Of a stretch of DNA of 64,000 bases, positions 51,079 to 53,422 are shown one piece after another; the first letter of the stretch is position 1, and each line of letters begins with the position of its first letter. This DNA comes from an uncultured Clostridia bacterium (GTDB lineage: Bacteria; Bacillota; Clostridia; Oscillospirales; Ruminococcaceae). The notes beneath the pieces are model-generated. The model saw only the letters and a list, made by a program, of their open reading frames with translations, had not been told where the DNA came from and searched no databases. The stretch covers positions 62,001 to 126,000 of the forward strand of contig CANPYZ010000001.1 of assembly GCA_947589035.1 (NCBI GenBank), given 5' to 3'. The position numbers and the translations under genes were made by a program.

Positions 51079-53094
51079 TTAATCAGATGATTCAGCAGTG
51101 GGGTTTTCCGTTTCAGGTTCTGGAGTGAGTTCAGCAGATTCCGCTAATTCTTTTTCTTTTCTGTCGGCAATTTCGTTAGCGAGTTCTGCGAGAGTTTTCT
51201 GTTTTCTGGGAACACGTTTCAGATACAGAACAGACAAAGCCGGCAAAGTTAAAGAAATACTCTGGTCGAATCCGTGCATACTGAAATCAAGTGTTTCATA
51301 TCTGGGGAAGGCAAGACCCTGACCGCCGAATTTCGGGTCATCTGTGCTGAACAGCAATTCATAGTCATCATCGAACGGCACACCGATTTTATAATCTTCA
51401 CGGGTGACGGGACAGAAATTGCAAACGGCGATAATTTCGCTGCCGTCGTCGGCAATTCTGCGGAAAGCGATAACACTTTGTTTATAGTCGTCATGGGAAA
51501 TCCAGCTGAAACCGCCCCAGGAATCATCATTATCCCATAAAGCAGGCGTATTCAGATACAGCTGATTTAATGCTGCAACGAAATCCTGTGTTTGTTGATG
51601 TTCGGGCTTTTCAAGAAGATCCCAATCAAGTTGAGTTTCGTAATTCCATTCGTTAATCTGGGCGAACTCCTGACCCATGAAAAGCATTTTCTTTCCGGGG
51701 TGTGCCATCATGTACGCTAAAAAGGCACGGTAAGAAGAAAATTTATCTGTTTCATAGCCGGGCATTTTCCGAATCATGGAACACTTGCCGTAAACAATTT
51801 CGTCATGAGAAATTGGCAGAATATAATTTTCGGAAAAGCAGTAGAAGAATGAAAATGTCAGCTTGTCATGATTGAATGCTCTGTAAATCGGGTCGAGTGA
51901 CATATATTGGAGCATGTCATTCATCCAGCCCATATTCCACTTGAAATTAAAGCCTAAACCGCCAATGTCCGTTGGCTTTGTCACTAAAGGCCAAGCGGTA
52001 GATTCTTCCGCAATCATTAAGGCATCGGGGTGTTTGGAAAAAACAGCTTCGTTTAAATTCCGGAAAAATTCAACTGCTTCAAGATTTTCATGACCGCCGT
52101 TAATATTAGGTGTCCATTCGCCGTCTCTGCGGTCATAATCTAAATACAGCATAGAGGCGACAGCGTCGACTCTTAAGCCGTCAAGATGAAATTCATCGAA
52201 CCAATAGCACGCACTGGAAATTAAGAAAGAGCGGACTTCACCTTTTCCGTAATCGAATACACGAGTACCCCATGATTTATGTTCCATTTTTTTAGGGTCG
52301 CTGTATTCATAGCAATATGTACCGTCAAATTCGCATAAACCGGAAGGGTCTTTCGGGAAATGAGCCGGCACCCAGTCGAGAATAACGCCGATTCCCGCTT
52401 GATGAAAAATGTCAATCATTTCTTTGAATTGGTCAGGCGTACCATAACGGGAAGTGGGAGCGAAATAACCGGTTACCTGATACCCCCATGAACCGTCGAA
52501 AGGATATTCTGTCAACGGCATAAATTCAATATGCGTGTAGGACATTTTTTTCAGATATTCGGTCATTTGTTTAGCAAAAGAAACGTAATCGGCAACAGAA
52601 CCGTCTTCATTATGTTTCCATGAATTGAGATGGACTTCATAAACGTTCATTGGACTTTTGTAGACGATATTTTTTTTCTTTTGTTCGAACCATGCATCAT
52701 CATGCCATACGTAATTGCTTTCGTAAATTTTGGAAGCAGTCGCTGGGCGAGTTTCGAAATGATGCGCATAGGGGTCACTTTTGGTCAGAATTTGACCGTC
52801 TTTTGTTTCAATGCTGTATTTAAACGCATCAAACTGTGAAAGATTTCCGATAACGGCTTCCCAGACACCGTCAGCAATCAATTCCATGGGGTGACTTTCT
52901 CTTTCCCATTCATTGAAATCTCCGACAACGGAAACACTAACGGCATTAGGGGCCCACACACGGAAACGATGTTTTTTCACGCCGTCTTCTTCAATGGCAT
53001 GAACGCCGAAAAACTTATAACTTTCGTTATTTTTCCCCTGATAAAACAGATAAAGAGGAAAATCATTCGGATTTTCTATCGTTGTAGTATTCAT
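51079..53094 (-). CDS. glgB: Glycogen branching enzyme
   Basis: About 671 residues, GH13 branching enzyme that makes alpha-1,6 branches. An N-terminal CBM48 (FRVWAPNAVSVSVVGDFNEW) precedes the barrel with the nucleophile Asp in DGLRVDAVASMLY, the acid Glu in MIAEESTAWP and LPISHDEIVYGK. A Glu/Thr-rich tail ends it. ATG 53094 has GGAAG 7 nt upstream; ATG 53130 adds 12 residues and overlaps the short leader frame, so coupling is possible. First gene of the glycogen operon. Confidence 0.93.
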   Translation of the reverse strand: MNTTTIENPNDFPLYLFYQGKNNESYKFFGVHAIEEDGVKKHRFRVWAPNAVSVSVVGDFNEWERESHPMELIADGVWEAVIGNLSQFDAFKYSIETKDGQILTKSDPYAHHFETRPATASKIYESNYVWHDDAWFEQKKKNIVYKSPMNVYEVHLNSWKHNEDGSVADYVSFAKQMTEYLKKMSYTHIEFMPLTEYPFDGSWGYQVTGYFAPTSRYGTPDQFKEMIDIFHQAGIGVILDWVPAHFPKDPSGLCEFDGTYCYEYSDPKKMEHKSWGTRVFDYGKGEVRSFLISSACYWFDEFHLDGLRVDAVASMLYLDYDRRDGEWTPNINGGHENLEAVEFFRNLNEAVFSKHPDALMIAEESTAWPLVTKPTDIGGLGFNFKWNMGWMNDMLQYMSLDPIYRAFNHDKLTFSFFYCFSENYILPISHDEIVYGKCSMIRKMPGYETDKFSSYRAFLAYMMAHPGKKMLFMGQEFAQINEWNYETQLDWDLLEKPEHQQTQDFVAALNQLYLNTPALWDNDDSWGGFSWISHDDYKQSVIAFRRIADDGSEIIAVCNFCPVTREDYKIGVPFDDDYELLFSTDDPKFGGQGLAFPRYETLDFSMHGFDQSISLTLPALSVLYLKRVPRKQKTLAELANEIADRKEKELAESAELTPEPETENPTAESSD

Positions 53095-53422
53095 GAAATT
53101 TCTTCCGTTACTGGAAACTGAATAGTTCATTCCTTAATTTTGTACCCACATTGCAGAATAAATACAATGATGTTGGCATATGGTACGTTAAAGGCGTAAA
53201 TCCCGTGACTTACGGGCATATCATTGCAATACCAGTAACTTATCCTTTCTTACTTGAATTTGCCAATGATGAGTTAGTCTCGTGTTCTGAAAGAATTGTG
53301 TAATTTTGATAGGGTTTTGTATATGATGTAAGGCAAAAGCAGAATTTTGCCTCAGAGAATGATGCAGGGGAAAAACCCCTTATAATTATTTTACCAGAAA
53401 ATTAAAAATTTTTCAAGTGTGA
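53095..53422 (-). ncRNA. Structured 5' leader of glgBCDA, candidate regulatory RNA
   Basis: About 330 nt lie between the mapped promoter and glgB. On the minus strand there are three clean hairpins: AAGGGG/CCCCT near 53365-53382, AGGCAAAA/TTTTGCCT at 53330-53352, and CCCGT/ACGGG near 53200-53216. CATCATTG occurs twice (53264-53271 and 53165-53172 on the plus strand as CAATGATG) with a complementary GCAATGAT between them (53220-53227), and another GCAATG at 53149-53154. Alternative helices are therefore possible. I match it to no known riboswitch class. Confidence 0.5.
53127..53219 (-). CDS. Possible 30-codon leader ORF before glgB
   Basis: ATG 53219 opens a 30-residue frame beginning MPVSHGIYAFNVPYAN and ending GYKIKE, with the stop overlapping ATG 53130 of the glgB frame (ATGA). 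It reads like protein, but no good ribosome site precedes it and the region is dyad-rich, so the opposite strand is open too (53151-53303). Treat it as a candidate leader peptide or a frame that arises from conserved RNA. Confidence 0.3.
   Translation of the reverse strand: MPVSHGIYAFNVPYANIIVFILQCGYKIKE

Follow-up and report, generated by a model that had tools for sequence, protein, structure and literature searches.

The window, the 64,000-nucleotide stretch of DNA analysed here, carries on its minus strand glgB, followed downstream by glgC, glgD and glgA. Between the glgB promoter and the glgB ATG at 53094 lies a structured leader of ~290 nt, and the gene upstream of the leader is SpoIIE-like by Pfam (Table 1). 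The start at 53094 was set by ortholog comparison, orthologs beginning at the equivalent position; an in-frame ATG at 53130-53128 (minus strand), inside the transposon-derived RNA of the leader, leads automatic ORF callers to place the glgB start 12 codons too early. Congeners with and without this element have the same promoter ahead of glgB. The former glgB Shine-Dalgarno sequence (SD), AGGGG, now lies ~280 nt from the glgB start codon, inside a hairpin.

Table 1. Features of the glgB leader, in window coordinates and in order along the minus strand; helices and ribosome-binding roles are predicted.
Feature	Position	Strand	Remarks
glgB promoter	53388..53416	-	-35 TTGAAA 53416-53411, 17-nt spacer, -10 TAAAAT 53393-53388
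Former glgB SD AGGGG, 53380-53376	53366..53380	-	paired in AGGGG-TTTTT-CCCCT hairpin
Hairpin AGGCAAAA-TTCTGC-TTTTGCCT	53331..53352	-	only in this genome; absent from orthologous leaders
Transposon-derived structured leader, P0 to P1 3' strand	53107..53266	-	RNA models R1/R2 built on the family
P0 5' strand TTGGCA	53261..53266	-	partner 53178-53173
Replacement SD AGAAAGGA	53243..53250	-	anti-SD duplex -10.1 kcal/mol; AAAGG kept family-wide
P1 5' strand GTTACTGG	53232..53239	-	starts 3 nt past SD
P2 hairpin	53219..53231	-	shortened in window copy (TATT:GATA)
P3 hairpin CCCG...CGGG	53202..53216	-	loop TAAGTCA in window, no longer matching PK2 partner TAACG
RAGATH-18-like core	53132..53194	-	R1 CCTT:AAGG, R2 GTACC:GGTAC, apical hairpin; orthologs/paralogs of the segment match RF03064
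P0 3' strand TGCCAA	53173..53178	-	within RAGATH-18 core, in stretch unpaired in Rfam consensus
Transposon right end CCAGTAACGG	53105..53114	-	common to mobile IS607 copies in the window's genome
P1 3' strand CCAGTAAC	53114-53107	-	local P1 pair probability 0.84-0.98
glgB	51079..53094	-	ATG 53094-53092, 12 nt past P1; Pfam CBM_48, Alpha-amylase, GlgB_N

The initial annotation described the leader as structured, with clean hairpins, and as resembling no riboswitch consensus. The structured leader is real, reaches from promoter to ATG and is conserved, but it is not a glycogen riboswitch or other glycogen sensor, because the same RNA precedes many unrelated genes. The clean hairpins are present (AGGGG-TTTTT-CCCC, AGGCAAAA...TTTTGCCT and CCCG...CGGG), and neither gathering nor permissive thresholds brought up an Rfam riboswitch in the window or in 12 loci, nor did any other known Rfam family match within the window. 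The whole-leader fold is only modestly better than those of shuffles (z -1.5). The complementary words from which a conformational switch had been proposed occur where they were described (CATCATTG at 53271 and 53172, GCAATGAT at 53227 and GCAATG at 53154), but at chance level: the leader has 3 complementary 8-mer pairs, first-order Markov randomisations average 1.8 and 283 of 1000 of them reach 3, and the words are conserved in none of the orthologous glgB leaders compared. What is conserved instead is a near-invariant 41-nt block, GGCAAATTCAAGTAAGAAAGGAT...GTTACTGG, together with a set of covarying helices. The non-coding nature of the leader is borne out, in that a protein reading frame does not explain this conservation: the ATG at 53130 is in frame here, and the extension is absent from most orthologs. 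An anti-SD hairpin upstream of the internal SD (53296-53289 with 53249-53242 in the window fold) was set aside; its partners vary by species, and the upstream region has a hairpin of its own.

Homologs of the leader are found upstream of glgB in other species. A DNA search found its 3' half in 12 of the 38 genomes of the genus; 9 of those 12, read directly, have it as a glgB leader, and other searches added 2 further glgB leaders. Orthologous leaders are thus carried by glgB in at least 11 species. The same architecture is found ahead of rplK, rplW, rplO, rplT, rpsA, efp, hpf, fabF, aroC, spoVG, tmk and pfkA, gene names beyond the glg operon and tnpB being read from translated N-termini, with Pfam run on only part. 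The sites comprise nusG-rplK (L079), rplD-rplW (L077) and hpf (L076) in the window's own genome; aroA-aroC (L086) and spoVG (L156) in G003; fabG-fabF (L087) and an AbrB-like gene (L100) in G041; rpmD-rplO (L133) in G050; an rpsA leader (L108); and, in other genera, rpmI-rplT and efp in G187, tmk in G444, aroA-aroC in G155, pfkA in G713 and a more divergent copy at rplV-rpsC in G154. L108 is a Ruminococcus-like rpsA leader in a record labelled as a Synergistaceae MAG, which is probably a binning error, or else a transfer. In model searches the broader right-end RNA occurs in 18 of the 38 congeners and is sparse in the family, order and class, and the class-level matches are mostly ordinary TnpB right ends with tnpB upstream. 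One locus in another bacterial family (L267, in G1125) reads AAGAAAGGATGTAAGTGTTAC ... AAGTAAC and is a possible member of the SD-helix family. Two observations concern the region upstream of P0. In the glgB leaders of G017, G019, G024, G042, G045, G046 and G048 (alignment A3) the promoter-to-P0 interval holds a conserved stretch, GATNATAGAGG...CTCT, which looks hairpin-like and in some species contains the old SD. In L086 and L108, copies retaining more of the element, an extra structured domain lies ~120-200 nt upstream of P0, and its stem covaries (GTAGTCC:GGACTGC vs GCAGTCC:GGGCTGC).

Sequence comparison makes it close to certain that the leader family derives from the right end of IS607/TnpB transposons, that is, from RAGATH-18 (RF03064), the guide RNA (reRNA) of IS607 TnpB nucleases (PMC11061315). 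Scores above the RF03064 gathering threshold of 44.9 bits are obtained for the leaders of hpf (58.5 bits), rplW (56.5 bits) and aroC (60.8 bits) and for L023 (65.5 bits, the highest); glgB orthologs reach at most ~40 bits, under gathering, and the window copy gives no match to RF03064 at E up to 10. The assignment of the window copy to RAGATH-18 rests on orthology, because the copy itself is too divergent to match. The RNA models R1/R2 score the window copy at 109 bits in its own genome, the copy itself being a member of their training set. The R1 and R2 helices, the internal loop and the conserved 3' GUUGAACAAGGAA are all found in the family alignment (98.6-100% paired cells in R1/R2), and the window copy retains the R1 and R2 helices, with a divergent loop sequence. 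The window's genome (G000) contains 33 RAGATH-18 matches, and the family is mobile and multicopy; several of the matches follow ORFs with OrfB_IS605 and Cas12f1-like_TNB domains, the copies share the right end CAGTAACGG or CAATAACGG, and gene-less short derivatives begin TTTAACAGTTA, directly after a G-rich SD-like motif. The leader thus resembles RAGATH-18 in its homologous core with R1 and R2, in its 5' P3 hairpin and in its right end CAGTAACGG, and has G000 relatives directly after TnpB genes. It differs in having no tnpB immediately upstream, where the SpoIIE-like gene lies, and in carrying an SD and a P1 5' strand that are absent from the ordinary TnpB-linked copies seen. The window copy, in addition, scores under Rfam detection and lacks PK2, the guide-RNA pseudoknot between P3 loop and right end (PMC11061315): its loop, TAAGTCA, is unable to base-pair with TAACG.

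For these TnpBs, AGGAG or GAGGG has been published as target-adjacent motif (PMC11061315), which resembles a Shine-Dalgarno sequence, so that insertion lands between SD and start codon. The placement of the copies agrees with this: mobile copies sit after GGAGG/GGGG, AGGGG precedes the window copy, and empty sites have an SD at that place. At least 13 congeners have an empty glgB site: behind the shared promoter comes a G-rich SD, and the ATG stands within a few nt of it. At the empty rplW sites, all 25 congeners compared carry GAGGAGG at a normal spacing from the ATG (anti-SD pairing ~ -11 kcal/mol; for the anti-SD we assume the sequence known in general, because a search of these genomes did not turn up the 16S 3' end); at rplW of G000, where the element is present, local anti-SD pairing amounts to -1.3 kcal/mol. 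Most carriers have no SD adjoining the start codon. The part of the literature that we searched holds no paper tying IS607 to Shine-Dalgarno sequences in this sense.

In the glgB branch, the order from 5' to 3' is P0 5' strand (TTGGCA), SD AGAAAGGA, P1 5' strand (GTTACTG), P2, P3, the RAGATH-18 core enclosing the P0 3' strand, the right end with the P1 3' strand (CAGTAAC), and ATG. Across 38 sites, a set that misses 4 sites including the window, the distance from SD to P1 is mostly 1-6 nt, the distance from P1 to ATG 6-15 nt and the loop 73-196 nt, and the median anti-SD pairing energy is -10.3 kcal/mol for the internal SD and -1.45 kcal/mol for the stretch from P1 to ATG. The corresponding window values, measured separately, are 3 nt, 12 nt, -10.1 kcal/mol and -4.4 kcal/mol. 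In most sites this gives a path of ~13-16 nt from SD to ATG, which exceeds that of a plain site. A strong SD 5' of a helix whose 3' strand is near the start codon, with no competing local SD, is the layout found across the 38 sites; the exceptions with a local SD include rplO (-8.1), glgB of G048 (-6.6) and the window, with a weak GGAAG (-4.4). A second family of short IS607-derived elements, with right end GAGTAGCAG, has its own SD AAAGGAG and a matching helix strand GCTAC (L135, L166, L230, L232, L233, L235, L236, L238, L239 and L240) and is multicopy in G456 and G467. In L092 and L084, which are other short elements, an SD-like motif followed by a near-complement of the right end TCAGTAACGG is already present at the left end (GAGGTGAAAACCGTTACTGA / GTTATTGA), where it overlaps a promoter; this may be an earlier form of the arrangement. 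We considered and rejected a leader peptide that would begin at AAATGTTACTGG in copies outside glgB: its putative ATG would sit only ~1 nt past GGA, and both the second subfamily and most glgB copies lack that ATG.

Compensatory changes, which the initial annotation had proposed to look for in related leaders, are found in P0, P1 and other helices. In an alignment of 28 leaders, 98.0% of cells are paired and 16 of 33 pairs have changes in both partners (0/500 shuffles); when the partners are shifted by one to three columns, pairing falls to 35-43%, and the first 20 leaders alone give the same picture. Most of the covariation is in P2, where 7 of 7 pairs are changed on both sides across the family, and in R2, with the variants GUGUC:GACAC, GUACC:GGUAC and GUAUC:GAUAC. 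P0 has three pairs changed on both sides (alignment A2), and further variants are TCCGGC:GCCGGA (L134), CTGGCA:TGCCAG (L133) and TTGGTC:GACCAA (L144). For P1, which is nearly invariant within the genus, covariation therefore comes from a few distant sites, with double-sided changes to GTTACCG:CGGTAAC (rplT, L147) and, outside the alignment, to GTTACCA:TGGTAAC (aroC, L148), and from the second subfamily (L135, L166, L230-L240), in which AAAGGAG is followed by GCTAC and the right end is GAGTAGC. In plain folding, which ignores the pseudoknot P0, the predicted probability of P1 in the window is 0.84-0.98 in the local fold and 0.17-0.41 in longer stretches; across sites its median is ~0.6, and it is near 0 in rplW, abrB and aroC of G155.

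The best explanation, and one that we hold to be quite probable, is that the transposon-derived leader loops itself out and re-supplies the ribosome-binding site. According to this proposal, the window leader has been inherited vertically and is what remains, in degenerate form, of a short IS607-family transposon with an RNA related to the TnpB guide RNA. Since the elements insert next to a Shine-Dalgarno sequence, insertion would part the gene's ribosome-binding site from its start codon. The glgB branch would then supply its own SD, AGAAAGGA, followed by GTTACTG, which would pair with CAGTAAC of the right end to form P1; P1 would fold out 73-196 nt as a structured loop and would bring the internal SD to within a short single-stranded distance of the start codon, so that translation would continue as if the loop were absent. 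P0 would form a pseudoknot beside the SD and probably helps to hold it in place. From the homology, insertion sites, gene contexts, loss of local SDs, covariation, constant geometry and surviving parts seen in the sequences we infer that P1 exists in vivo, that the internal SD serves ribosomes from the far side of the folded loop and that P0 contributes. At rplK, rplW, rplO, rplT, rpsA, efp and tmk, loss of translation should not be tolerated. We think it likely that these elements are a mobile family which inserts between SD and start codon and keeps its own insertions translationally silent through a replacement SD and a terminal helix, and that several descendants now serve essential genes as a lasting ribosome-binding site.

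In eroded copies of ~100 nt at pfkA of G713 (L253) and at a gene of G466 (L234), most RAGATH-18 parts are lost, and SD, P1 and start codon are in register; the G466 copy also retains P0, and P3 itself is gone in eroded members that keep SD and P1. That SD and P1 survive the loss of guide-RNA parts suggests that the RNA serves to place the SD and not to bind TnpB. A domesticated cis-regulatory switch, with P1 turning translation on and PK2 or TnpB binding turning it off at glgB and other genes, is improbable, although many members do have the alternative pairings: the 3' end CAGTAACGG has two possible partners, GTTACTG upstream of it (P1) and CGTTA in the P3 loop (PK2), the two pairings draw on the same TAAC nucleotides and are mutually exclusive where both exist, several glgB leaders retain a CGTTA or GTTA loop, and TnpB proteins are still encoded in the genome. 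P1/PK2 is not the switch of the window, because the window copy has lost PK2; eroded members have lost P3, and the downstream genes have no common pathway.

Removal of the element from the RNA, by IStron-like or other splicing that would join the internal SD to the start codon, is very unlikely. Splicing would give the same order of SD, element and ATG, and IS607/IS605 elements that carry group I introns, the IStrons, have been described (PMC4227781). However, permissive thresholds reveal no group I or group II intron in the window or in 12 loci, so that an identity as a group I intron or IStron was rejected for the leader, and eroded copies without most conserved nucleotides still have SD and P1. 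There is an equally slim chance that the leader is a passive relic, an insertion that the gene tolerates with a weak new start region; its conservation would then reflect nothing but recent descent or the use of copies as TnpB guide RNAs. Consistent with a relic, the family is mobile and multicopy and some sites have a usable local SD; however, the near-invariant SD-P1 block is kept while the rest diverges and guide-RNA parts vanish, and rplW is without any other SD. The originally proposed switch through CATCATTG/GCAATGAT words has next to no probability: an unconstrained fold of 53095-53400 does pair such words, but they are at chance level (283/1000), orthologs lack them, and the RNA also stands ahead of many unrelated genes.

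The proposed looping-out of the leader has counterparts in known systems. Phage mRNAs of the kind exemplified by T4 genes 38 and 25 contain a hairpin that lies between SD and AUG and draws them together. As in the present proposal, the helix reduces the effective distance from SD to start codon; those hairpins, however, are short and belong to single phage genes, whereas the leader would form a 73-196-nt loop in a mobile family ahead of many host genes. Byp elements are mobile segments in yeast mitochondrial genes that are skipped by the ribosome; in both cases a mobile sequence is tolerated and translation passes without its removal from the RNA, but byps act in coding sequence during elongation, whereas the leader would act at initiation. 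IStrons combine a group I intron with an insertion sequence (PMC4227781) and are alike in being transposable elements whose RNA activity would make insertion harmless to the host gene; IStrons splice out, whereas the leader has no detectable intron, and the route proposed for it is folding with an internal SD.

For annotation, genes with such leaders appear SD-less or receive a wrong upstream start, as glgB does here. If the proposal is true, it explains how elements with an SD-like target motif are tolerated ahead of essential genes, and a relative of the TnpB guide RNA has been repurposed as a structured ribosome-binding site. The ~40 sites, ahead of many genes, would then constitute a natural repeated experiment on how initiation proceeds when a large folded loop separates SD from AUG, and the family would represent a further route by which a mobile element becomes harmless at the level of expression, besides RNA splicing, protein splicing and elongation bypass.
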